NCBI GenBank assembly: GCA_018883345.1
Contig: VEQG01000009.1
Location: 1-59,953, forward strand
Direction of reading: 5' to 3'
Origin: Candidatus Nanopelagicaceae bacterium
Lineage (GTDB): Bacteria; Actinomycetota; Actinomycetes; Nanopelagicales; Nanopelagicaceae
DNA length: 59,953 bases
Shown here: piece by piece, positions 8,628 to 20,814 of the stretch
How the letters are laid out: each line of letters opens with the position of its first letter
How positions within the stretch are numbered: position 1 is the first letter of the stretch
Notes under the pieces: generated by a model
What the model was told of the DNA's origin: nothing
Seen by the model: the letters and a program-made list of their open reading frames with translations, nothing else
The model's database searches: none
Made by a program: the position numbers and the translations under genes

Positions 8628-11510
8628 TCAAGAGCAACCAGAGGTATTACCGCAACCTTCGCAGACATAGCAAGCGCCAGATGCACGCATCTTTACGCCA
8701 CAGGTCATGCAAAGTGGTGCATCTGATTTGATGCCTGAGATCTTTTCAAGAAGTTCAGTTGATGAACCAACCGCCGATTGTGGCGCTGCGCTTTCGATCT
8801 TGATCTCAACTGGCTTGGCAGGTGAAGTTATTGGCGCCACTGGAGCCACAGGAGCTGCTGCTACTTCGACACCTTGTGCAATTGATGCAGTGATTGCATC
8901 GACATCGGGTGTGTATTCGCCGGTCTCAAGTGCGCGAGCGCGCTCTGAGGCAGTGTAAAGACCGATTGCAGCACGCTCTTCGAATGGTAGGTAATCAAGT
9001 GCTAGACGACGGAAGATGTAATCAAGCATTGATTGTGCCATACGTAAATCTGGATCATCGGTCATACCTGCTGGCTCGAAGCGCAAGTTCATGAACTTCT
9101 CTACGAATGTTTGTAATGGAACTCCGTATTGCAGACCGATTGATACTGCGATGGAGAATGCATCCATCACGCCAGCAAGAGTTGAACCCTGCTTACCAAG
9201 TTTCAAGAAAACTTCACCAAGAGTGCCATCGTTATATGCACCTGCAGTCATGTAGCCCTCTGCGCCACCAACATTAAATGAAGTAGTGCGAGAAGGACGT
9301 GACTTTGGTAAGCGCTTACGAACTGGAGTTGCTGGTGCTTCTGCAGTTGCAGCGGCTTCTTTCTTTTCGGCCTTTGCATCAGATAGTGGCTGGCCAACTT
9401 TGCAATTATCGCGATAGATCGCAATTGCCTTAAGGCCTAGCTTCCAACCCTGGAAGTAGACATCCTCTACCTCTTCAACGGTTGCATCTTCTGGCAAGTT
9501 AACGGTCTTAGAAATCGCACCAGATAGGAATGGCTGGCATGCTGCCATCATTCGAACGTGGCCCATTGGCGCGATAGAACGCTTTCCAAGTGCACAATCG
9601 AAGATGTCGTAGTGCTCTTGCTTTAGGCCAGGCGCATCGATTACGTGGCCATTTGCTGCGATGTACTCAACAATCGCTTCGATGGTCTCTTCGTTGTAGC
9701 CAAGCTTACGAAGCGCTAGCGGGACGGTCTGATTGACGATCTGCATTGATCCACCGCCGACTAACTTCTTGAACTTAACTAGTGAGAAATCAGGCTCGAT
9801 ACCAGTGGTATCGCAATCCATCATCAGACCAATAGTTCCGGTTGGAGCAAGCACAGAGATCTGTGCATTGCGCCAGCCATTCTTATCGCCTATTGCCAAG
9901 CAATCATCCCAGGCCTTATTAGCCGCTGCCCATACATCTGCATCCATTGTTGCAAATGATTTTGCAGCAGATGATGCTGATGCGTGCTTACGCATTACGC
10001 GAGCATGTGGTTGTGCATTACGTGCAAAGCCATCGTAAGCACCAACAATGCCTGCAAGTTCTGCAGAGCGCTTGTAGGTAATACCTGACATCAAAGAGGT
10101 AATCGCACCAGCTAGGGCACGGCCACCTTCTGAATCGTATGCAAGGCCAGATGCCATAAGTAGCGCACCAAGGTTTGCATAACCAATACCTAGCTGACGG
10201 TAACGCTTTGTGGTGTCACCAATTGCTTCAGTTGGGAAATCAGCGAAGCAGATTGAGATATCCATTGCAGTAATGATCATCTCTGCTGCTTTCGCAAAGG
10301 TACGTGAATCAAATGAACCATCTTGCTTTAAGAACTTCATCAAGTTAAGTGAAGCTAAGTTGCAAGAAGAGTTATCTAATGACATGTATTCAGAGCATGG
10401 GTTTGATGCATTGATGCGACCGGTCTCTGGATTTGTATGCCAATCATTAATTGTGGTGTCGTACTGAATTCCTGGATCAGCGCATGCCCATGCAGCTTCT
10501 GCCATCTTGCGGAATAGTTGACGAGCATCAATCTCTTCAATTACTTCTCCGGTAGCGCGCGCCTTAAGACCGAACTTCTCGCCCTTTTCGTATGCGTGCA
10601 TGAAATCATCTGAAACGCGAACTGAGTTATTTGCGTTCTGGTATTGAACAGAGATGATGTCCTTGCCACCTAGATCCATATCGAAACCAGCATCGCGAAG
10701 TGCGCGAATCTTGTCCTCTTCACGGACCTTGGTCTCAATGAACTCTTCGATATCTGGATGATCTACATCTAAAACAACCATCTTTGCCGCACGACGTGTT
10801 GCGCCACCTGACTTAATGGTTCCGGCAGAAGCATCAGCACCACGCATAAATGAAACTGGGCCAGATGCGGTTCCGCCTGATTTTAGAAGCTCTTTTGAAG
10901 AGCGAATGCGTGAAAGGTTTAGACCAGCACCAGATCCACCTTTGAAAATCATTCCCTCTTCGCGATACCAGTTAAGGATTGAATCCATGGTGTCATCTAC
11001 AGACAAGATAAAGCATGCGCTTACCTGCTGTGGTTGGTTGGTACCAACATTGAACCAAACTGGTGAGTTAAAACTAAATACCTGATGCAACAACATGTAT
11101 GTCAATTCATGTTCGAAAACTTGTGCATCTTTATCTGTTGCGAAATATCCGTGTTCTTTACCCGCCTTGGTGTAAGTAAGAACCACGCGATCGATTACTT
11201 GACGTAGTGACCATTCGCGATCTTCACGTCCAACAGCACCACGGAAATATTTGGTGGTAACAATTGTCGATGCGTTAATTGACCAGAAATCTGGAAACTC
11301 AACCCCACGTTGTTCGAAGACGGTCTCGCCGGTCTTCCAATTTTGTTGAACAACATCGCGACGTTCCCAACTTACTTCGTCGTATGGATGCACACCTTCG
11401 TTGGTGTAAATGCGCTCAATACTTAGGCCTTTGCCCTTTTTGGTGTTATGAGCGAAAAGATCTTTGACAGAAGATCCTTTAGTAGGTCGATTGATGACCG
11501 TGTCTGACAT
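8628..11510 (-). CDS. nrdJ: Adenosylcobalamin-dependent ribonucleotide reductase (class II)
   Basis: Reduces ribonucleotides to deoxyribonucleotides using a B12-generated thiyl radical, needing no second subunit and no oxygen. The protein is 960 residues, the usual size for the long class II form. Visible features are FNSPVWFNVG (147-156), the redox cysteine in VSACF (166), the phosphate-binding GGSGAG stretch near 191, the catalytic NPCSE (370-374, radical Cys372), the partner Cys in SSCNL, and PTGTIG further on. The C-terminus carries CMTCGVKMRASGACYVCEGCG, a mobile redox/zinc tail. It starts 33 bp after nrdR, so the two are probably co-transcribed under NrdR control. Confidence 0.95.
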   Translation of the reverse strand: MSDTVINRPTKGSSVKDLFAHNTKKGKGLSIERIYTNEGVHPYDEVSWERRDVVQQNWKTGETVFEQRGVEFPDFWSINASTIVTTKYFRGAVGREDREWSLRQVIDRVVLTYTKAGKEHGYFATDKDAQVFEHELTYMLLHQVFSFNSPVWFNVGTNQPQQVSACFILSVDDTMDSILNWYREEGMIFKGGSGAGLNLSRIRSSKELLKSGGTASGPVSFMRGADASAGTIKSGGATRRAAKMVVLDVDHPDIEEFIETKVREEDKIRALRDAGFDMDLGGKDIISVQYQNANNSVRVSDDFMHAYEKGEKFGLKARATGEVIEEIDARQLFRKMAEAAWACADPGIQYDTTINDWHTNPETGRINASNPCSEYMSLDNSSCNLASLNLMKFLKQDGSFDSRTFAKAAEMIITAMDISICFADFPTEAIGDTTKRYRQLGIGYANLGALLMASGLAYDSEGGRALAGAITSLMSGITYKRSAELAGIVGAYDGFARNAQPHARVMRKHASASSAAKSFATMDADVWAAANKAWDDCLAIGDKNGWRNAQISVLAPTGTIGLMMDCDTTGIEPDFSLVKFKKLVGGGSMQIVNQTVPLALRKLGYNEETIEAIVEYIAANGHVIDAPGLKQEHYDIFDCALGKRSIAPMGHVRMMAACQPFLSGAISKTVNLPEDATVEEVEDVYFQGWKLGLKAIAIYRDNCKVGQPLSDAKAEKKEAAATAEAPATPVRKRLPKSRPSRTTSFNVGGAEGYMTAGAYNDGTLGEVFLKLGKQGSTLAGVMDAFSIAVSIGLQYGVPLQTFVEKFMNLRFEPAGMTDDPDLRMAQSMLDYIFRRLALDYLPFEERAAIGLYTASERARALETGEYTPDVDAITASIAQGVEVAAAPVAPVAPITSPAKPVEIKIESAAPQSAVGSSTELLEKISGIKSDAPLCMTCGVKMRASGACYVCEGCGNTSGCS

Positions 11511-11543
11511 TGGTGCTCTTTCTCTAGTGTGTTTAGTTTTTAT

Positions 11544-12071
11544 TTATCCGCGTGGGGATACGGATTTCATTGCTGAATTTTTTACTGAACTGTTTTCTTC
11601 ATTTGAAGCTAATGTTGCAGCTGCTGTTGGGAATTCTCGAAGCAGGGAAATTTCGCCTTCGAAGTCAGCAAGGGAAGCAAAGTTACGATATACCGAGGCA
11701 AATCGTAGGTAAGCCACGGCATCTAATTCTTTTAGTGGCGCAAGTATCGCCATTCCCACTTCATGCGCCTCAATATCTGCTTGGCCAGATTTGCGAAGCG
11801 TCTCTTCAACGCAAGATGCCAAGCGAGCCAGATCATCTTCTGAGACCGGGCGACCTTGGCAGGCCTTGCGGACGCCGTTGATCACCTTTGCGCGGCTAAA
11901 TGGTTCGGAGATTCCTGATCGTTTAATGACGTTAAGAATGGTGGTCTCTTGAGTTGAGAATCGCTGGCCGCACTCTGGGCATTCACGGCGGCGGCGGATC
12001 TGAAGACCATCTTCAACTACGCGAGAGTCGACAACACGTGAATCATCATGCTTGCAAAAAGGGCAATTCAC
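11544..12071 (-). CDS. nrdR: NrdR transcriptional repressor of ribonucleotide reductase genes
   Basis: A 175-residue ATP/dATP-sensing repressor. The zinc ribbon opens the protein ([16 protein letters not shown], then [10 protein letters not shown]) and the ATP cone follows ([24 protein letters not shown]), with a conserved end [13 protein letters not shown]. The start is GTG at 12069-12071: GAGGAG lies 8 or so bases upstream and it is the only start that puts the zinc ribbon at the N-terminus. A reading frame continues 26 codons further upstream but lacks homology. It lies directly upstream of nrdJ, its expected target. Confidence 0.95.
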
Positions 12072-12122
12072 CTTCTGTCTCCTCTCTTGCTTATTCTCGT
12101 GCTTGGATAGAAGCGGTAACTT

Positions 12123-12149
12123 AGCGTATTCAACTTCCAATAACCACAA
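12123..12149 (-). promoter_or_regulatory. Candidate nrdR-nrdJ promoter
   Basis: On the minus strand TTGTGG (complement of 12144-12149) and TACGCT (complement of 12123-12128) are spaced 15 bp, followed by about 50 bp to the GTG start. The -35 box coincides with one of the candidate NrdR boxes. The spacing is short of ideal, so this is tentative. Confidence 0.3.
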
Positions 12150-12159
12150 CTAATGGAAG
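12144..12159. promoter_or_regulatory. Candidate NrdR box (weaker, promoter-proximal)
   Basis: CCACAACTAATGGAAG matches the NrdR box consensus (acaCwAtATaTwGtgt) at about half of its positions. It is supported mainly by starting exactly 31 bp from the better box at 12175, the usual three-turn spacing of tandem NrdR boxes. Confidence 0.35.
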
Positions 12160-12174
12160 TTTTGATGCTTTGAA

Positions 12175-12190
12175 CCACTACATATTGGGG
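12175..12190. promoter_or_regulatory. Candidate NrdR box (better match)
   Basis: CCACTACATATTGGGG matches about 12 of 16 positions of the NrdR box consensus, including the central ATAT-like core and flanking C and G. It is about 100 bp upstream of nrdR, in the right place for autoregulation of nrdR-nrdJ. Confidence 0.5.
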
Positions 12191-12277
12191 TAAGTGAGAG
12201 AACCATAAAGCATGACTTGAAGGTTGTAAATCATCTGAGCATGCGCGACACGCGCGAGTATTTTTACTCTATAGCGA

Positions 12278-12315
12278 GAGGCTAACTAGAGGCTAATTAG
12301 AGGCTAATTAGAGGC
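12278..12315. repeat. 11-bp tandem repeat (about 3 copies)
   Basis: GAGGCTAACTA, GAGGCTAATTA and GAGGCTAATTA run in tandem and end inside the last codons of the NlpC/P60 gene, so the stop codon lies within the array. On the minus strand the array is the first part of the 3' untranslated region. Confidence 0.75.
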
Positions 12316-13306
12316 GTTTAGCGCCAACAAAGGGCTTACTGCCTAAACGAATAGCCGTGGCAATCTCAACGCGCTTTCCCGGACGAGGTGCATGGACCAT
12401 CTTGCCTTTGCCCATATAAATACCGACATGGCTAATCGGACGACCAAAGAAGACTAGATCACCGGGCGCGAGCGCGCTTCGTGGCACATTCTTGCCATAT
12501 CTAAATTGGGCAGCTGCAAAGTGCGGCATTGATACACCAGCCTTTTGGAAGGCGCGCATCGTTAAACCACTGCAATCCCATTTGGTTGGCCCGGCGCCTG
12601 CCCATACATAAATATCGCCTAATTGATCAAGTGCATATTTCAAAGCAATTGCGCCCTTAGTTGAACCACCTGCATATAGAGCAGCCAATCGCTTTGATTC
12701 AGCAAGAATCTTCTTCTGCTCAGCATCATCTGCCGCAGCAAGTCTTGCGCGCTCCTCTGCCTTTAAAGAAGCCAATAATTTTTCAGCCTTTTTCAACGCG
12801 GCATTTGCAGAGGCCACTTGTTTTTCTAACCTTGCTTGTGCAGCTTTTAACTGCGCAGTGCGGTCAGAGACTACTAATTGACTTGATTGCAAGCCTTGGC
12901 TGTAAGTCTGCAATTGGCGAAGTTTTGTTGAATATCTCTGCGCCAACACATCAAGCATCGCAGCATCAGATAGATACTTCGCAGGATCTCTTGAAAGCAG
13001 AAGTTCCAGGCCATTTCCTAGTCCGCCATTCTTGTAATTCTCAACGGCTAACTTTGAAATTTCACTCTTTAATTTATTAGCTTTGGCATTGGCTGCCGCT
13101 TCTCCAGCTTTTAAACCATTTAATTCGCGCTGCAATTTTGAGATCTGATATTTAATTCCATTAGCAGCTTCATATTTTCCAGCCGCCTCTTCACGAAGTT
13201 CATTAACCTGTTTCTGAACTTGGGCGGCTGTAGGCGCGCCAGTAGCGCTCGGAACTAGCGTCACGGCTAGGGCTACCGATGCAGTTAGGGAAATCAACTT
13301 GCGCAT
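12308..13306 (-). CDS. NlpC/P60 peptidoglycan endopeptidase with coiled-coil (RipA-like)
   Basis: A 332-residue secreted wall hydrolase. A signal peptide (about 1-23, ending SATGA) is followed by a long Ala/Lys/Glu-rich coiled coil (about 30-215), as in actinobacterial RipA and Bacillus CwlO-like proteins, whose coiled coil restrains and localises the enzyme. The NlpC/P60 domain (about 220-332) has the catalytic Cys in KWDCSGLT, the His in ISHVGIYMG, and a further His in MVHAPRPG. It likely cleaves the stem peptide between D-Glu and diaminopimelate during daughter-cell separation or growth. No SH3 or LysM domain is present. Confidence 0.9.
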   Translation of the reverse strand: MRKLISLTASVALAVTLVPSATGAPTAAQVQKQVNELREEAAGKYEAANGIKYQISKLQRELNGLKAGEAAANAKANKLKSEISKLAVENYKNGGLGNGLELLLSRDPAKYLSDAAMLDVLAQRYSTKLRQLQTYSQGLQSSQLVVSDRTAQLKAAQARLEKQVASANAALKKAEKLLASLKAEERARLAAADDAEQKKILAESKRLAALYAGGSTKGAIALKYALDQLGDIYVWAGAGPTKWDCSGLTMRAFQKAGVSMPHFAAAQFRYGKNVPRSALAPGDLVFFGRPISHVGIYMGKGKMVHAPRPGKRVEIATAIRLGSKPFVGAKRL

Positions 13307-13430
13307 AGAACGTAAAGGCTACATCGGTGAGTGAAAAATGGCTAAAAAAATCGGGTAAAAATCCTTATTTATCAAGGTTTTCACAGGTTTGACGCTGGAA
13401 ATTGCGCCTATTCGTAAAGCGCGATGTGTC

Positions 13431-14033
13431 CTATTTGGCCAAGGGGCCTAACTTGTAGGAATCTAATCGAACTGCAGGTTTGCTCTGATTTTCATGTTGC
13501 GAATTAAAAGCAGCGCTTCCATCTACACCGCATAAAGACAAAATAGCTGAAGCCCCACCTGGATGTGAATTAATCCAACGAGTTAGATCATAAACATAAT
13601 TATCAATAATCGTCCAACAACTTTGGCGTGAATTATTAGCTTTTACTTGGGCTAATGTGTAACCCGAATTAGCAGCGGTTGGAGTTGCTGATTTGGAAGG
13701 AGTTTGAGTTGGGGTTGAATCAGTAGTTGGTGTGGGAGTCGGTGTGGGAGTCGGTGTGGGAGTTGCTGGTGTTGGTTTTGGTGTTGGGGATTGCTTTTTT
13801 ACTTGAACGCCCTTATTCCAAATTAATTTTTTACCAGAATTGTTTGACTTAATACAAGTGAAAATTTTATTCTGGTAGGTAACTTTCTGATTTAAGACTT
13901 TACAACTTGCTCCTGGAGTTATCTTGGTAGCTGCCGATGAATTAGTCGGCAAAGGCGCCAAAAAGAGCGATGAAATAAGGGTTATTTTGAGGGCTTTCTT
14001 TAAAGCTGCCTTTTTCAATACTCCGGTGGTCAT
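13431..14033 (-). CDS. Secreted cytochrome b5-like heme-binding protein
   Basis: A 200-residue exported protein in three parts. A signal peptide (about 1-34, hydrophobic ITLISSLFLAPL) leads a small domain with ASCKVLNQKVTYQNKIFTC and KKLIWNKG (about 35-80). A Pro/Thr-rich linker (about 82-118) is encoded partly by three 12-bp repeats at 13729-13764. The C-terminal domain (about 122-197) follows the cytochrome b5 pattern: YTLAQVKANN, SCWTIIDNYVYDLTRWI, NSHPGGASAIL, then GVDGSAAFNSQH. The HPGG His and the later NSQH His are the expected heme ligands. An exported b5 domain suggests an extracytoplasmic electron-transfer or heme-binding role; the partner is unknown. Confidence 0.8.
   Translation of the reverse strand: MTTGVLKKAALKKALKITLISSLFLAPLPTNSSAATKITPGASCKVLNQKVTYQNKIFTCIKSNNSGKKLIWNKGVQVKKQSPTPKPTPATPTPTPTPTPTPTTDSTPTQTPSKSATPTAANSGYTLAQVKANNSRQSCWTIIDNYVYDLTRWINSHPGGASAILSLCGVDGSAAFNSQHENQSKPAVRLDSYKLGPLAK
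13729..13764. repeat. 12-bp minisatellite, three copies
   Basis: GGTGTGGGAGTC repeated three times (last copy ends in T) inside the Pro/Thr linker of the cytochrome b5-like gene; it encodes a PTPT-type linker that could change length by slippage without shifting the frame. Confidence 0.85.
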
Positions 14034-14070
14034 AGGAAAATATTAAAGGAGCGCTATTGTTTAAAAAACT

Positions 14071-14691
14071 CTAGCGGACGCTTCGAAGTACTGCGGTTAC
14101 TTTGCCAAGAATTTCACAGTTATCGCCATTGATTGGCTGGTAATCAGGGTTAGCTGGCATTAACCAGATATGGCCATCCTTACGGGTAAAAGTCTTAACT
14201 GTCGCCTCTCCATCAATCATGGCCGCGACAATTTCGCCCTTTTCGCAAGTTTTCTGAGAGCGGATCACAACGTAATCGCCATCGCAGATTGCAGCTTCGA
14301 TCATTGAATCGCCAACTACTTTGAGCATAAATAATTCGCCACTTCCGACGATTGATTCAGGAAGCGGAAAGGTCTCTTCGATGTGCTGTTCGGCCAAAAT
14401 TGGGCCACCAGCTGCGATGCGACCAACGAGAGGAATCTGGCGGGAGCGATCTGCGATTACGTTGGAATCTGATTCGACCACTTCGATGGCGCGGCCAAGG
14501 CTGGCATCGCGGCGGATAAATCCCGCTTCCTCGAGCGCCTTTAGCTGGTACTGGACTGAGGCTGAGCTTGAGAGCCCTGCCGCTACCCCGATCTCACGGA
14601 TCGATGGTGGGTAGCCATTGTTTTGAATGCCCTCTTGAATCGCAGTGAGGATCTTTACCTGGCGCGGGGATAGGCCGGATGTATCTGTCAT
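14071..14691 (-). CDS. lexA: LexA SOS repressor
   Basis: A 206-residue repressor that undergoes RecA-stimulated self-cleavage. The N-terminal winged helix is visible (PPSIREIGVAAGLSSSASVQYQLKALEEAGFIRR, about 28-61). The cleavage site is Ala94-Gly95 in RIAAGGP; the catalytic dyad is Ser129 (VVGDSM) and Lys166 (EATVKTF). A LexA-box-like sequence at 14724-14737 lies about 33 bp upstream of the ATG, consistent with autoregulation. No Shine-Dalgarno sequence is evident, so the message may be nearly leaderless. It is divergent from a LysM protein gene, the arrangement seen for SOS division inhibitors next to lexA in Mycobacterium, Corynebacterium and Bacillus. Confidence 0.97.
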   Translation of the reverse strand: MTDTSGLSPRQVKILTAIQEGIQNNGYPPSIREIGVAAGLSSSASVQYQLKALEEAGFIRRDASLGRAIEVVESDSNVIADRSRQIPLVGRIAAGGPILAEQHIEETFPLPESIVGSGELFMLKVVGDSMIEAAICDGDYVVIRSQKTCEKGEIVAAMIDGEATVKTFTRKDGHIWLMPANPDYQPINGDNCEILGKVTAVLRSVR

Positions 14692-14723
14692 GGCATAAGG
14701 GTCTCATAGCAGGAAAGAAAATT

Positions 14724-14737
14724 CAAACATTTGTTCG
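14724..14737. promoter_or_regulatory. LexA box, lexA-proximal (imperfect)
   Basis: CAAACATTTGTTCG matches the Gram-positive/actinobacterial SOS box CGAACRNRYGTTYG except at position 2 and in the central bases. It lies 33 bp upstream of lexA, where it would mediate autoregulation. Confidence 0.65.
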
Positions 14738-14745
14738 AAAATTTC

Positions 14746-14775
14746 TTGACCTATGTCGGTGGGGTGTTCTATGGT
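14746..14775 (+). promoter_or_regulatory. Candidate promoter of the LysM protein gene
   Basis: TTGACC (14746-14751) and TATGGT (14770-14775) with an 18-bp spacer. The predicted start of transcription (about 14782) abuts the strong LexA box at 14785, so bound LexA would block initiation. Confidence 0.55.
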
Positions 14776-14784
14776 TCTCTTATT

Positions 14785-14798
14785 CGAACAGGTGTTCG
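14785..14798. promoter_or_regulatory. LexA box, LysM-gene-proximal (consensus)
   Basis: CGAACAGGTGTTCG is a full match to the SOS box CGAACRNRYGTTYG with intact 5-bp arms. It sits just downstream of the candidate -10 box of the LysM gene, about 50 bp before its start codon. Confidence 0.88.
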
Positions 14799-14824
14799 AT
14801 AAACCAAAGTAGCCTTCCCCGAGG

Positions 14825-14840
14825 CTCCTAAATGTAGGAG
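14825..14840 (+). promoter_or_regulatory. Hairpin that sequesters the Shine-Dalgarno sequence
   Basis: CTCCTA-AATG-TAGGAG forms a perfect 6-bp stem with a 4-base loop. Its 3' arm is the TAGGAG ribosome-binding site used by the ATG at 14849, so folding would reduce translation of the LysM protein. Confidence 0.55.
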
Positions 14841-14848
14841 TGAAGACC

Positions 14849-15166
14849 ATGAGCAATATCCGTCGAAATACCAGAAGTCGCCGAGCAAATATCCGTCTTG
14901 CCCGCTTCCTCGTGGTCCTATCACTTACAACTGTTTTTGGCGCAGGTTTCGCGATGCAAGCTGGCGCCGGTTCAAAGGATCTTCCTACGAAAGCTGGCGC
15001 TTACGTCACTGTAACGCTCGCACCTGGCGAAACTCTCTGGTCGCTAGCAAAGGCGCTTAACGATGGCGGAGATGTGCGCGAACTTGTAGACACAATCATC
15101 AAAGTTAATGGATTGACTTCAAGTGATATCGCTGCAGGCAGCAAAATCCGAGTACCGCTAAATTAA
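14849..15166 (+). CDS. SOS-controlled LysM membrane protein, likely division inhibitor (YneA/ChiZ/DivS type)
   Basis: A 105-residue protein with a basic N-terminus (RRNTRSRRANIR), one membrane segment (about 18-38) and a LysM domain (about 52-104: YVTVTLAPGETLWSLAKAL, VNGLTSSDI, GSKIRVP). This is the layout of Bacillus YneA and mycobacterial Rv2719c/ChiZ, SOS-induced proteins encoded beside lexA that delay division. ATG 14849 is preferred because TAGGAG lies 8 bases upstream; GTG 14840 overlaps that site. A consensus LexA box and promoter precede it. The division-inhibitor role is inferred from gene position and domain layout. Confidence 0.82.
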   Translation: MSNIRRNTRSRRANIRLARFLVVLSLTTVFGAGFAMQAGAGSKDLPTKAGAYVTVTLAPGETLWSLAKALNDGGDVRELVDTIIKVNGLTSSDIAAGSKIRVPLN

Positions 15167-15181
15167 TTTTTCTTAAGCAAA

Positions 15182-16558
15182 TTAATCGCGTTCTTTCTGT
15201 AATACTCGTAAGTGAAAGAGCGCAACCAGGCCAGTACTAATTAAGATTCCAAGTGGTGTACTTAATTGAACTTGATCTAGTCCACCAATTAAAAGCGCTT
15301 TGAAGAAGGCGTATACAACCCAGACCGAACTTCCAAGAGCTACTAGCGTTGGAATACCAATTAAAGCGTACAAATATATTCTTCGAATCGGAGCATGGTG
15401 TTCAACTTCAAAATCGACTGCCATAGCAAATTGGCATTTGCGCCAATGCAACCACCAGGTCGGCAAAGTTGTAACTATTAAACTTGCGCCAAAGATAATT
15501 GCATCATTTTGATCTGCGCTATCTAGCAATCCTGCGATTACTGCACCAATAGAAATGGCGATACCAACCATCGCCATTGCGCTAATTAGATATTGATAAA
15601 CACGGGTCAACTCATCACGCTCATAACCTTTTAGCAATCTACGGAAGAAGCTGATGGTTGCAAATAGGACGATTGCAGCTGCGGTAGTGCTTGCAGTTTC
15701 ATCCCAATATGCATCTCCGCCAGATAACCAGGTGAAGAAGGTGTTTATGGAAAAAGTGGCAGCAATCGTTGCAAAGAGCGCTGGGATTACCTGCCCGCCG
15801 AGGTAGCGGTAAGCACGGATCTCAATCAGACTAGCCTTTGCATCAAAGTTCTGCCAATAAAAGATTGCAGTGGGCAAAGAAAGCGCCCCACCAATAATCG
15901 CTTCTTGAATCAACTTATGGCCAGTTGGTTGGCTAGATACCTTTTCTATAACCCATTCCAATAGATTCATTAGCGCAATTACTAATCCAGTAGCGCCCGC
16001 GAACCAACCAATGAATCTATGAATATTGGACATTAGCGATTGGTACTTATTGATTAGGCGGATATGCACCAACCAGATTGCAAATGCTATTAAGCCATTA
16101 GCAATTCCCTTTGGGTTGTAATCAGCACCAGCTAACACATTTAGTGAGCCAATCATGAATAAGAACCATATTAAGAGCGAGAAAGAAGTTGCGGCCAACA
16201 AATACAACTGCCAGGCTGGTTCTGAACTAGCTTTCGGTTCTTTTGCGAAATCTCTTCTAATCCACCAAGTAAGTACTGCAACAACTGGTATACCTACAAA
16301 CACAAAGGATAGCCACCTGGCTATATCTTCTTTATTCGTATAAGCAACTTGATTTGGATCAATAACTTCAGTCAGTAATCCAGCTAGACCGAAACTTAAG
16401 AAGAATAAAGATAAGAAGAGCGCCGCGTATTTCAAAATATCTCGAAGGAATTCAAGTCCTTGTGAATTTTGATGCTTATCAATAGTTGCTTTAATTCCTA
16501 CCAGCGCAAAATACCCAACTGCACCCATAATTGCTAAAAAGAGAATCCCGAAGATCAT
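15182..16558 (-). CDS. Multi-pass membrane protein, DUF5671-like
   Basis: A 458-residue integral membrane protein with about 11 or 12 hydrophobic segments and short charged loops (for example WWIRRDFAKE and RRLLKGYERDELTRVYQYL). The repeated layout of a helix group followed by WLSGGDAYWDETAS-type loops resembles DUF5671 proteins, which have no known function. It begins 3 bp after prpD on the same strand, so it is likely the last gene of the hydrolase-SDR-prpBCD operon. It could be a transporter or sensor for the same substrates, but no transporter signature is recognisable. Confidence 0.6.
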   Translation of the reverse strand: MIFGILFLAIMGAVGYFALVGIKATIDKHQNSQGLEFLRDILKYAALFLSLFFLSFGLAGLLTEVIDPNQVAYTNKEDIARWLSFVFVGIPVVAVLTWWIRRDFAKEPKASSEPAWQLYLLAATSFSLLIWFLFMIGSLNVLAGADYNPKGIANGLIAFAIWLVHIRLINKYQSLMSNIHRFIGWFAGATGLVIALMNLLEWVIEKVSSQPTGHKLIQEAIIGGALSLPTAIFYWQNFDAKASLIEIRAYRYLGGQVIPALFATIAATFSINTFFTWLSGGDAYWDETASTTAAAIVLFATISFFRRLLKGYERDELTRVYQYLISAMAMVGIAISIGAVIAGLLDSADQNDAIIFGASLIVTTLPTWWLHWRKCQFAMAVDFEVEHHAPIRRIYLYALIGIPTLVALGSSVWVVYAFFKALLIGGLDQVQLSTPLGILISTGLVALFHLRVLQKERD

Positions 16559-16561
16559 GAG

Positions 16562-18004
16562 TTAATTCTTCACGTAAAGAGAGATAAAGTCATCAGCATT
16601 CATAGTTAAAAAATGGTCAAAGTTGAGTGTTGCCGCTTCTATCTTTGAAACTTGTGAATCATCAAAAATTCGTCTCAAATTCCTCTTATATTTCTCAACT
16701 AATAGTGGCAAACCTTCTGCTCTTCTCCGCTTATGTCCAACTGGATACTCAACAACAATTTCATCGCTCTTTGTTCCGTCATTAAATTCGATAGTTACCG
16801 CATTAGCGATAGAGCGTTTCTCAGGATCATGGTAGTCAGCGGTAAATTGGGCATCTTCGACACATACAATTTTTTCGCGTAGCGCATCAATTCTTGGATC
16901 TGCGGCAATTTCATCTTCATAATCTTTGGCAGTTAATCGACCAAATATCAGCGGCACTGCAACCATGTACTGAACACAATGATCGCGATCTGCTGGGTTA
17001 TTTAAAGGGCCTTTCTTATCAATGATTCTGACGCAAGCTTCGTGTGTGCGGATGGTGACTTGCTTGATATCTTCACTGCTCTTGCCATTAGCAACCATCC
17101 ACTTATGTAAAGTGAAAGCGGCTTCGCAGGCTGTCTGTGAATGAAATTCAGCTGGAAATGAGATCTTCCAAAGCACGTTCTCCATCACATAAGTTCCGTA
17201 AGGGCGTTGGAATTTAAAGTTTGCACCTTTAAACGAAACGTCATAAAAACCCCAAGTTTTTGCAGTTAGAGCTGATGGAATACCCATCTCTCCCGCCTTA
17301 GCCATTAACGCTAATCTCACAGCGCGCGATGTGGCATCGCCTGCGGCCCAAGATTTGCGTGAGCCGGCATTTGGATAGTGGCGGTAAGTACGTAGAGATT
17401 GACCATCAACCCAAGCTAGCGAAACCGCATTTAAGGTTTCTTCGCGAGTTAACCCCATCATCTGACAAACCACAGCTGTAGATGCAACTTTTACTAATAT
17501 GACGTGGTCAAGACCAACTTTATTAAAAGAATTTTCAAGTGCGATACAACCTTGTATTTCGTGAGCTTTAATCATTGCCGTTAAAACATCTCTGACCGTT
17601 AATTTTTTCTGGCCACTTCTGTTTAACCAATCAGCTACCGCGAGAATGCCTCCCAAATTATCGCTTGGATGACCCCACTCTGCCGCAAGCCAAGTATCGT
17701 TGAAATCTAACCAGCGAATTGCAGTACCGATATTAAATGCGCCTTGAACCACATCTAATTCAAAATTAGTACCTGGAACTCTGACACCATTTTCTACCTT
17801 CGTTTCTGGCACTAAGGGTCCAAGCAACTTGGTACAAGCTTGATATTCAAGAGATTCCAGGCCGCAACCAATAGTGTCAAGCAGTCCAGACCAAGCAGTT
17901 TTGTAAGCTAACTCTGATTTAACTTCGTAGTTCAATGCATAATCAACAATATCTTGAATCTCTTGATCAAACGGTTGATTGGATTTCTGTATGTGTGATG
18001 ACAA
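16562..18004 (-). CDS. prpD: 2-methylcitrate dehydratase (MmgE/PrpD family)
   Basis: Dehydrates 2-methylcitrate to 2-methyl-cis-aconitate in the methylcitrate cycle of propionate oxidation, in the cytosol. The 480-residue length is normal. Family patterns include LDTIGCGLESL, AIRWLDFNDTWLAAEWGHPSDNLGGILAVADW, and NAVSLAWVDGQSLRTYR, with EFHSQTACEAAF further on. It starts at TTG 18002-18004, supported by GAGGAG 6 bases upstream and by lying right after the prpC stop. It is the third prp gene in a B-C-D order. No separate aconitase gene is seen nearby. Confidence 0.93.
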   Translation of the reverse strand: MSSHIQKSNQPFDQEIQDIVDYALNYEVKSELAYKTAWSGLLDTIGCGLESLEYQACTKLLGPLVPETKVENGVRVPGTNFELDVVQGAFNIGTAIRWLDFNDTWLAAEWGHPSDNLGGILAVADWLNRSGQKKLTVRDVLTAMIKAHEIQGCIALENSFNKVGLDHVILVKVASTAVVCQMMGLTREETLNAVSLAWVDGQSLRTYRHYPNAGSRKSWAAGDATSRAVRLALMAKAGEMGIPSALTAKTWGFYDVSFKGANFKFQRPYGTYVMENVLWKISFPAEFHSQTACEAAFTLHKWMVANGKSSEDIKQVTIRTHEACVRIIDKKGPLNNPADRDHCVQYMVAVPLIFGRLTAKDYEDEIAADPRIDALREKIVCVEDAQFTADYHDPEKRSIANAVTIEFNDGTKSDEIVVEYPVGHKRRRAEGLPLLVEKYKRNLRRIFDDSQVSKIEAATLNFDHFLTMNADDFISLYVKN

Positions 18005-19135
18005 TTAACGCTCCTCTAGTCTCTTGAAAACCAAATCTTCTGGGCCGGTGTAATTTGCAGACGGTCGAATTATTTTTCCATCAGCTCTCTGTTCAATCAC
18101 GTGCGCAGACCAGCCCGTGATTCTAGAAATCACAAATATAGGAGTGAAAAATGAGGTAGGTATTTTCATTGCGTTATAAGCAACCGCGCTAAACCAATCC
18201 AAATTTGGGAACATTTTCTTTAAATCCCACATCACAGTTTCGACTCTTTCAGCAATATCAAAGAGTGTTCGATTGTCGGATGATAGATCTTTGGCAATTG
18301 ATTTGATTATTGGGTTTCGGGGATCTCCGATTGTGTACACCGGATGTCCAAATCCGATCACTACTTCTTTTGCAGCTACTCGCTTTCGAATATCAACTTC
18401 TGCTTCATTTGGATCGGCATATCGCTCCTGGATTTCAAGTGCCACTTCATTGGCGCCACCATGCTTTGGTCCCCGCAACGCTCCAATTGCCCCGGTGATC
18501 GCAGAGTAAATATCGCTGCCAGTACCTGCAATAACTCGGGCGGTAAAAGTTGAAGCATTAAATTCATGTTCGGCATACAGTATTAATGAAGCATGCATGG
18601 CGCTTTCCCATTGCGCACTTGGCATTTTCCCGTGCAACATCTCCAAGAAATGGCCGCCGATTGAATCTGATGTCGTGCTGCATTCAATACGTTTGCCGCT
18701 ATTTGCAAAGTGATACCAATAGCAAAGCATTGATGGCGTTGATGCAATCAAGCGATCAGCAATGGCCTTTGCTGCGCTTTCAAGATGGCCATCATGTTCG
18801 GGCTCTATGGTTCCTAATGTTGATACACCAGTGCGAAGTACATCCATTGGATGCGTAGATTTAGGTAATTTTTCTAATACTTCCCTAACTTGCGGCGGTA
18901 GATCTCTTAGATTTTTTAATTTCGCTTTGTAGGCAGATAGTTCAACTTTGTTTGGAAGATGTCCATGAATCAAAAGGTACGCAACCTCTTCAAATTGGCA
19001 GTTAGCTGCTAAATCAGCAATATCAAAGCCACGATAATGTAAATCATTACCACTTCGACCTACGGTGCAAATTGCAGTATTACCTGCCGCAACCCCCGAT
19101 AAGGCAACGGATTTCTTGGGCTTAAATTCACTCAT
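18005..19135 (-). CDS. prpC: 2-methylcitrate synthase (citrate synthase family)
   Basis: Condenses propionyl-CoA with oxaloacetate to give 2-methylcitrate. The 376 residues are typical of the short type of citrate synthase. Signatures are [14 protein letters not shown] near the N-terminus, GPKHGGANE for the active-site His region, [19 protein letters not shown] for the second His, and [16 protein letters not shown]. Sequence alone does not separate methylcitrate from citrate synthase with certainty; its place between prpB and prpD, with the prpB stop directly before its ATG, argues for methylcitrate. Confidence 0.9.
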
Positions 19136-20017
19136 TTACTTGCCTTGAAATTTATCTAAAGCTTCTTCATATTTGTAATAATCAATTGCTTCATAAAGCT
19201 CTTCGCGAGTTTGCATATGATTTATTGCGCTCTTTTGAGTACCTTCGGAACGAATGGTCTTGTAAACAAGTTCCGCAGCTTTATTCATAGCTCTAAAAGC
19301 CGACAATGGATAAAGCACAATGTCTACATTCGCACTTCGCAGTTCCGCAACCGTAAATAATGGAGTTTTTCCGAACTCGGTGATGTTGGCAAGAATCGGA
19401 ACTCCCGCTGCTTCGCTAAATTTTCTGTAAGTCTCTAGATCTCCCACTGCTTCTGGGAAAATCATGTCTGCGCCAGCTGCCACATATTGGTGAACTCGAT
19501 CCAGTGCGGCATCTAATCCTTCGTTTGCCAAAGCATCAGTGCGCGCCATGATTGTAAATTCTGAAGAATTACGACCATCAACTGCTGCTTTTATGCGATC
19601 GACCATCTCATTTACGCTAACAATTTCCTTATTAGGTCGATGCCCGCATCTTTTGGCAGCTACTTGATCTTCCATGTGGACTGCAGAAGCGCCAGCTTTC
19701 TCAACATCCTTTACCGTTCTGGCGATATTAAACGCTGAGGTCCCAAAGCCAGTATCAATATCTACCAGTAGCGGTAAATCGCAAACATTTGTAATTCTTC
19801 GAACATCAGTTAACACATCATCTAAAGTAGAAATCCCAAGATCTGGAAGACCTAACGAACCAGCCGCCACACCTCCGCCACTTAAATAGATAGCTTTATA
19901 ACCTGCGCGCTTTGCAAGCAGCGCATGATTTGCATTGATTGCACCTACGACTTGCAGCGGGTGTTCTTCCTTTACCGCTTCCTTAAAAGATTTGGCATTA
20001 CTAATTGCAAAACTCAT
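19136..20017 (-). CDS. prpB: 2-methylisocitrate lyase
   Basis: Splits 2-methylisocitrate to pyruvate and succinate, closing the methylcitrate cycle. The 293-residue protein shows the PEP mutase/isocitrate lyase pattern: [43 protein letters not shown] with the catalytic Cys in KRCGH, then [19 protein letters not shown]. The start is taken as ATG 20015-20017, which overlaps the stop of the upstream SDR gene as ATGA, a coupled arrangement. An ATG four codons further upstream is possible but sits on the GGAGG site itself. Confidence 0.93.
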
Positions 20018-20814
20018 TGTGAAGTCCATCCTCCATCAACTGGAATGGCAGCACCAGTGATGTTGTGTGCTGCCTTTGAACATAGAAAAACTGCAACTGC
20101 GCCAATATCGGAAGCAGTGGCTAAACGTTTTGAAGGTTGTTTTTCAGATAACAAATCTGCAATTCCTTTAACTCGATCTCCGCCAAATTTATCTGCTCGT
20201 GCTTGAATTTGTGGTTCGATGAGCGCAGTTTCAACCCAGCCAGGACAAATTGCATTTACAGTAACTCCACCAGACTCTCGGGTGCCGGCATCTGCATATT
20301 CCAAAGCTGCAACCCTAGTTAAACCGATTACGCCATGTTTTGCAGATACATAAGGCGCTTTAGCAACTGATGCCACAAGCCCATGAACAGATGCGGTATT
20401 AATTACACGCCCATAACCACGTTCTTTCATCTGAGGCAATAACAATCTCATGGTGTCGAAAAATGATTCTAAATTAATAGCAATAATGTCGTTCCATTTT
20501 TCTCTTGGCATTTCTGCAGTCGGTGCGGTGTGCTGAATTCCAGCGTTATTGCAAAGGATGTCTACCGGCCCACCTGCTAATATTTTTGCAATCAAATCTT
20601 CGGTTGCTGCAGGATCTCGTAAATCAGATACAAAAGATTCAACTTTTCCGGCACCCGCTGCTTTAACTTCCGCTTCGGCGTTTGCAATCACTTCGGCGCT
20701 ACCGAGGCCATGAAGCACAATATCTGCGCCTGCTTTTGCAAGTTCGGTCGCTATGCCCAATCCAATTCCTTGGAAAGAGCCGGTAATAAAGGCGCGACGT
20801 CCTTTTAGTGTCAT
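20014..20814 (-). CDS. 3-hydroxybutyrate dehydrogenase-type short-chain dehydrogenase
   Basis: A 266-residue NAD-dependent SDR, best matching D-3-hydroxybutyrate dehydrogenases, which oxidise 3-hydroxybutyrate to acetoacetate. Visible are the cofactor motif TGSFQGIG (about 11-18), [14 protein letters not shown] (about 86-99), the catalytic Ser in INTASVHG and the YVSAK Tyr-Lys pair (about 155-159), and the family-typical region [20 protein letters not shown]. The C-terminus [13 protein letters not shown] is also typical. It overlaps both neighbours by 4 bp (ATGA). The substrate could be another short 3-hydroxyacid, for instance 3-hydroxyvalerate; acetoacetyl-CoA synthetase across the island fits either. 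Confidence 0.85.

Follow-up and report, generated by a model that had tools for sequence, protein, structure and literature searches.

A predicted exported, stalked cytochrome b5 protein of Nanopelagicaceae and its modular relatives: a probable electron carrier outside the membrane

The window analysed here, i.e., a whole stretch of 59,953 nucleotides (contig VEQG01000009.1 of the Candidatus Nanopelagicaceae bacterium assembly GCA_018883345.1), encodes at 13431–14033, on the minus strand, a 200-aa protein (ATG start, stop codon included in the coordinates) that combines a signal-peptide-like N-terminus, a small module which we denote CysW, a Pro/Thr-rich linker and a cytochrome b5 domain. We propose, with a probability of roughly 0.6, that this protein is a tethered carrier of single electrons on the outside of the membrane, namely an exported b-type cytochrome of the b5 family served by small membrane redox proteins. 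The exported b5 group of Actinobacteria and ultra-small bacteria as a whole probably carries electrons outside the membrane. Cytochrome b5 is textbook eukaryotic biochemistry and Nanopelagicales are abundant freshwater bacteria; the exported bacterial versions of b5 seem to be hardly studied. The individual b5 domain is ordinary, and the interesting part is the exported, modular, Cys-paired family together with its links to DoxX and DUF2231 proteins.

An earlier note on this DNA had proposed a signal peptide, a small domain with a Cys pair, a Pro/Thr linker coded by a 12-bp repeat and a b5-type heme domain with both expected His residues, and all these parts are present in the ORF, the N-terminus being recognised by eye. 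Residues 1–35 (13929–14033, minus strand as are all features of the ORF) include a KK...KK stretch followed by a hydrophobic segment and a cleavage-like SSAA end, and relatives have similar N-termini; a simple hydropathy scan detected no segment of membrane-helix strength in the 200-aa protein. The CysW module (aa 38–78, 13800–13922) is modelled as three short strands. The linker (aa 79–122, 13668–13799) is defined by its composition and includes a tandem repeat coding for PTPT at 13725–13763, with a period of 12 bp, 3.2 copies and 96% matches. The b5 domain (aa 124–199, 13437–13664) is supported by Pfam, the structural model, Foldseek and VIA-align. The match to PF00173 (aa 126–198, 65.6 bits at a cut-off of 23.7, E = 4e-18) is the sole Pfam domain above cut-off in the ORF and the only PF00173 match in the whole assembly (1.4 Mb in 58 contigs, 85% complete). 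In the AlphaFold2 model, which was built with 58 sequences, pLDDT per block is 90–95 for residues 41–80 (the Cys module) and 89–98 for residues 121–200 (the b5 domain), and the signal peptide and the linker are of low confidence.

The b5 domain is confidently predicted to adopt the b5 fold; a predicted structure at odds with it, which by the earlier note would have refuted its reading, was not obtained. All 50 of the Foldseek matches listed (of 195) are b5-type, with TM-scores by target length of 0.60–0.87, and the best VIA-align match is rat cytochrome b5 (1icc_C), with Z 14.3 and an rmsd of 1.3 for 78 residues. The candidate axial ligands, H157 of the HPGG motif (13563–13565) and H180 (13494–13496), are invariant in all 58 rows of the structure alignment (the window protein and 57 of 78 references), as are P158, G159, G160, I164, C168 and G169, none of which was used for choosing the rows. 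C139 is invariant in the same 58 rows as well, but since the rows were gathered by patterns requiring VY[DN]LTxWI and C[WV], the invariance of C139, W140 and V147–I154 comes partly from that choice. Among 88 ORFs with the b5 head from the order Nanopelagicales, three fail to match a strict two-His pattern: the first is truncated where its contig stops, another retains both His residues outside the pattern, and the third (G046:C72) has truly lost both.

This conservation bears on the possibility that the protein is a structural or adhesive surface component whose b5 fold accommodates a ligand other than heme, in the manner of the MAPR/steroid-binding relatives. Such a role would fit the description of PF00173 as a heme/steroid binding family and the resemblance of CysW and the Pro/Thr linker to parts of surface proteins. 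However, MAPR/steroid-binding b5-like proteins are not known to have the axial His pair, whereas that pair is invariant here, and in this respect the window protein appears unlike the MAPR group; furthermore, the best structural matches are cytochromes b5 at Z 13–14, compared with only Z 7.7 for PGRMC1 (4x8y). We consider a structural role quite unlikely.

A feature that is absent from the earlier note is a second pair of Cys residues, C139 (13617–13619) and C168 (13530–13532), located inside the b5 domain. By pattern, the Cys of the [ILM]CG motif is found in 88 of 88 ORFs of the order, themselves chosen by PF00173 alone, and the Cys of CW/CV in 85. The bacterial b5 fold of cytochrome b558 from Ectothiorhodospira vacuolata (1CXY), which aligns over 77 residues at 35% identity and Z 13.2, likewise has both of these Cys, with CW and CG aligned in the profile alignment, and we take its two Cys to be disulfide-bonded. 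Of the five solved structures that were aligned, 1CXY is the only one with both Cys; a viral b5 and flavocytochrome b2 have the CW alone, two have neither, and all four non-1CXY alignments show AG in place of the CG cysteine. The likeness to 1CXY has its limits: the solved chain consists of a b5 of 90 residues and has neither CysW nor a Pro/Thr stalk, and the residues around its second axial ligand align differently from the QHENQ of the window protein. The other PF00173 cytochromes b5 (microsomal, outer-mitochondrial, flavocytochrome b2) share the fold, the HPGG motif with the second His and the VYDLT...HPGG...D core. To our knowledge, neither the microsomal and outer-mitochondrial b5 nor the heme domain of flavocytochrome b2 is exported on a stalk.

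Of 201 genomes of the order, 82 carry PF00173; when just the more complete genomes are counted, it is 52 of 108. In a class-wide draw, 20 of 197 genomes have a match, 13 of these 20 belonging to the window's own family. The order yielded 91 match rows, of which 88 were read as ORFs and three were not fetched. By simple patterns, these ORFs fall into N-terminal classes denoted HQPV (35), CysW (27), DUF2231-like membrane part (18) and others (8, several of them truncated at the end of a contig or having masked linkers). Thus, the architecture for which the earlier note suggested a search, an exported CysW module followed by a linker and a b5 head, recurs in 27 of the 88 ORFs by pattern. The HQPV domain is an exported-type region of ~170 aa that starts with HQPV and precedes the b5 head (e.g., loci L153, L156 and L184). 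It has no Pfam family, all HQPV loci were found through b5, and a search of the window's own genome, run without a positive control, gave no match to it; DUF2231 is not found in that genome either.

A single peptide pattern, run against one genome per species (84,980 species), recovered 228 relatives, and the top 80 were retained. Among the named relatives, those with the highest scores belong to Nanopelagicales, e.g., 'Ca. Planktophila lacus', whose cultured strain MMS-21-148 (locus L146) encodes a protein of the window protein's architecture, and on this basis the window is placed in this acI-type group; some entries of the list are titled as other genera and appear to be mislabelled. Outside Nanopelagicales, Aquiluna and other Micrococcales-type genomes have stalked heads of lipoprotein-like appearance (lipobox by eye), and the stalked heads at seven Patescibacteria loci have hydrophobic-looking N-termini, likewise judged by eye; a hydropathy scan of two of these Patescibacteria heads called a segment in one. 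DUF2231-b5 fusions, with both domains above the Pfam cut-offs, are present in Propionibacteriaceae, Intrasporangiaceae and some Nanopelagicales. In these fusions the identical type of Cys-paired b5 head follows a linker, but it is preceded by four predicted membrane segments and not by the secreted-type CysW. The b5 head is modular, i.e., the same head is found on several kinds of N-terminus. A mobile origin of the b5 gene finds no support: at E 1e-5, there was a single match among 72,556 plasmid records (31% identity) and none among 50,697 phage records.

The CysW-b5 proteins do not form one clade. The window head is nearest to the heads of HQPV proteins (77% identity) as against other CysW-b5 heads, and no starred branch of the tree fixes its placement. 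Forcing the 23 CysW rows into a single clade costs 212 log-likelihood units (−212, p-AU 3e-88; 102 rows and 77 columns, five of 107 rows with long branches having been removed beforehand), and the starred branches alone imply at least seven changes of the CysW label. The classes were fixed before a quick tree was made, and that tree was seen before the clade test. Together with the distribution of CysW outlined below, this test implies that a lineage-typical module has been joined to the b5 head more than once.

CysW comprises ~40 aa, with C44, C60 and W72 unchanged in all 12 rows compared, and matches no Pfam family above cut-off. Of 61 genomes of the order, 58 encode it, with up to nine per genome; in the class-wide draw, all 11 genomes of the window's own family have it, as do 2 of the 137 others. 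In the window's own genome, CysW is present on four proteins including the b5 protein. A second is truncated by a contig end; a large one contains a HELGH motif and has metallopeptidase matches below the Pfam cut-offs; and another, C22 (locus L143), is of the secreted type, with CysW, two similar Cys mini-domains (by eye) and a large region, and has no Pfam match. The chitin-binding entries head the weak lists for CysW: 1ED7 is at the top of the profile list (E 0.81) and chitinase B at the top of the Foldseek list (E 0.44). None of the 172 Foldseek matches, however, is at E ≤ 0.001, and for CBM5/12 the score of the window module is below the PF02839 cut-off (19.8 compared with 26.2 bits, E = 8e-4), with E ≤ 1 reached by only one of 19 members. 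The best VIA-align match, for a single-sequence model with pLDDT 80, is a protease inhibitor at Z 2.6. The similarity of CysW to chitin-binding modules is suggestive only.

The linker between CysW and b5 varies in length between species, spanning 14–73 aa in 25 of 26 proteins measured; the 26th has a linker of 392 aa, within which lies an additional domain containing a HEFFH motif (by eye). Locus L068 (genome G186) encodes tandem CysW-b5 genes, the second of which, a 539-aa frame, has the HEFFH domain between CysW and b5.

In the window, a gap of 37 bp separates the b5 gene from lexA (14071–14691, minus strand), which precedes it on the same strand, and an NlpC/P60 gene follows; lexA is divergent from a LysM-protein gene (14840–15166, plus strand). 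Read-through from lexA into the b5 gene is possible. Among 87 fetched b5 loci, lexA is found only in the window's own, and in 29 other lexA loci (~1.5 kb on each side; 30 of 41 match rows were fetched) there is no b5 gene, with a LysM gene in 25 and nrdR in 20. The order lexA-b5 is therefore local, and membership of b5 in an SOS or cell-wall operon was rejected on the same grounds. Between the divergent lexA and LysM-protein genes lies an exact palindrome, CGAACAGGTGTTCG (14785–14798), which presumably fits the actinobacterial SOS box; 24 matches to the box pattern with two or fewer mismatches were found at 18.7 expected, and 14785–14798 is the only one with none. No RNA family reached the gathering score at 11000–16000. 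A run of genes at 16562–20029, read from the ORF list, we take to be prpD/prpC/prpB-like, of the methylcitrate type.

There is no redox gene beside the b5 gene in the window, and for the CysW-b5 class no conserved partner was found; the neighbours vary by subclade. It might be argued that the protein is a redundant fusion under weak selection that persists by chance. The patchy presence of b5 in the order, the varied neighbours of the CysW class and the loss of both His residues in G046:C72 are compatible with this, but the window ORF is intact and the eight residues listed above that were not selected for, from H157 to H180, are invariant in 58 rows that include both Actinobacteria and Patescibacteria; persistence by chance is very unlikely.

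The link to membrane redox proteins comes from related heads. In four of the seven Patescibacteria loci, a DoxX gene (above the Pfam cut-off) directly follows the b5 gene, and loci L203, L209, L213 and L217 are two-gene units of b5 and DoxX with stop and start codons nearly touching or overlapping. In two Adlerbacteria loci (L210:4339–4761 and L211:4302–4721, starts by eye), the b5 gene is directly followed by a gene for a membrane protein with weak matches to DUF2214/DUF6644 below the cut-offs and, in the one tested, four predicted membrane segments; the one remaining Patescibacteria locus has no such neighbour. In mycobacteria, according to work cited in PMC6201333, DoxX associates with SodA and SseA in an oxidoreductase complex of the membrane. 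Among HQPV-b5 genes, 19 of 34 have a same-strand DCC1 (11), MauE-like (8) or DoxX-like (1) gene within 500 bp, one having two; this is a raw count without a background rate, for gene types chosen after they were sighted beside HQPV-b5 and with seeds from those same loci, and, since the HQPV genomes are close relatives, the independent cases are far fewer. The corresponding counts are 0 of 26 for CysW, 0 of 18 for the DUF2231 type and 0 of 7 for the others (one HQPV and one CysW ORF were missed by the pattern and are not included), and three CysW-b5 ORFs have a MauE-like gene at a distance of 1154 bp. The DCC1 proteins score above the Pfam cut-off, and the MauE-like and the Nanopelagicales DoxX-like proteins below theirs. 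The window's own genome encodes one DoxX and one DCC1 protein above cut-off, both on contigs other than that of the b5 gene.

The earlier note had left the function open between an extracytoplasmic electron carrier, a heme scavenger and a heme sensor; the redox neighbours of the related heads, although not those of the window gene itself, favour the first, and the other two receive no support here. Surface proteins that capture heme and transfer it to an importer are familiar from the NEAT proteins of Firmicutes. A scavenger or heme store of this kind, which would capture or hold heme at the surface and hand it over to an importer, would be consistent with the signal-like N-terminus, with a module that is common on secreted-type proteins of the lineage and with the general capacity of the b5 fold to bind heme tightly. 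However, no heme-uptake gene was recognised by eye beside b5 in the window, the related heads adjoin DoxX, DCC1 or MauE-like genes or carry DUF2231, and bis-His b5 sites usually retain their heme, so that heme scavenging appears unlikely. As for a surface sensor of redox state or heme that would signal to another protein, a small soluble stalked head with a Cys pair that could switch would suit this role, but no signalling domain was recognised by eye among the ORFs of the order listed, few of which were scanned with Pfam, and no recurrent signalling neighbour was noticed; we regard sensing as highly improbable.

For the electron carrier, we envisage the following scheme. The signal-like N-terminus would send the protein across the membrane, and CysW, which is common to other large secreted-type proteins of the lineage, may hold it at the cell surface or wall, with the Pro/Thr linker, given its composition and low model confidence, serving as a flexible stalk. 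The head is predicted, from the modelled fold and the aligned His residues, to bind one heme b between H157 and H180, and a disulfide between C139 and C168, a conserved pair with Cys at both positions in 1CXY, could stabilise it outside the membrane. It would then shuttle electrons one at a time, with a small redox protein of the membrane on one side and an extracytoplasmic acceptor on the other. The type of partner is suggested by the relatives, i.e., the fused DUF2231, the downstream DoxX in Patescibacteria and the DCC1 and MauE-like proteins encoded beside HQPV-b5. Against the carrier role stand the solitary position of the window gene, the patchy presence of b5 and the G046 head without both His residues.

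More tentatively, and with the odds somewhat against it, we hypothesize that these proteins belong to a so far unnamed modular extracytoplasmic b5 redox system that extends across planktonic Actinobacteria and Patescibacteria, with interchangeable stalks (CysW, HQPV, lipoprotein-like, a hydrophobic anchor or DUF2231) and small membrane redox partners (DUF2231, DoxX and MauE/DCC1-like). In the window's own genome, the head would be placed on the lineage's own surface module and the partner would be encoded elsewhere.

Among the literature matches listed, we found no description of an exported CysW-linked or Cys-paired b5 family in Nanopelagicales, Patescibacteria or bacteria in general, nor of DUF2231 or DoxX tied to a cytochrome b5 family; as the search covered open-access literature only, this absence carries little weight. 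In the parts of the sources available to us, one line of PMC8080830 names cytochrome b5 among the electron carriers of Absconditabacteria and Vampirococcus, the paper on flavinylation (ApbE; PMC8238504) mentions neither cytochrome b5 nor DUF2231, and PMC4785604, considered as a source on b5, concerns cytochrome b562 instead.

If the modular system exists as outlined, it would provide a single-electron route to or from the surface for cells with reduced genomes, among them Patescibacteria that lack a respiratory chain. The DoxX-b5 pairs of Patescibacteria represent a two-gene system simple enough to be rebuilt in a laboratory host. In Nanopelagicales, a b5 head present in 82 of 201 genomes would link energy metabolism to the surroundings of the cell in a testable manner.
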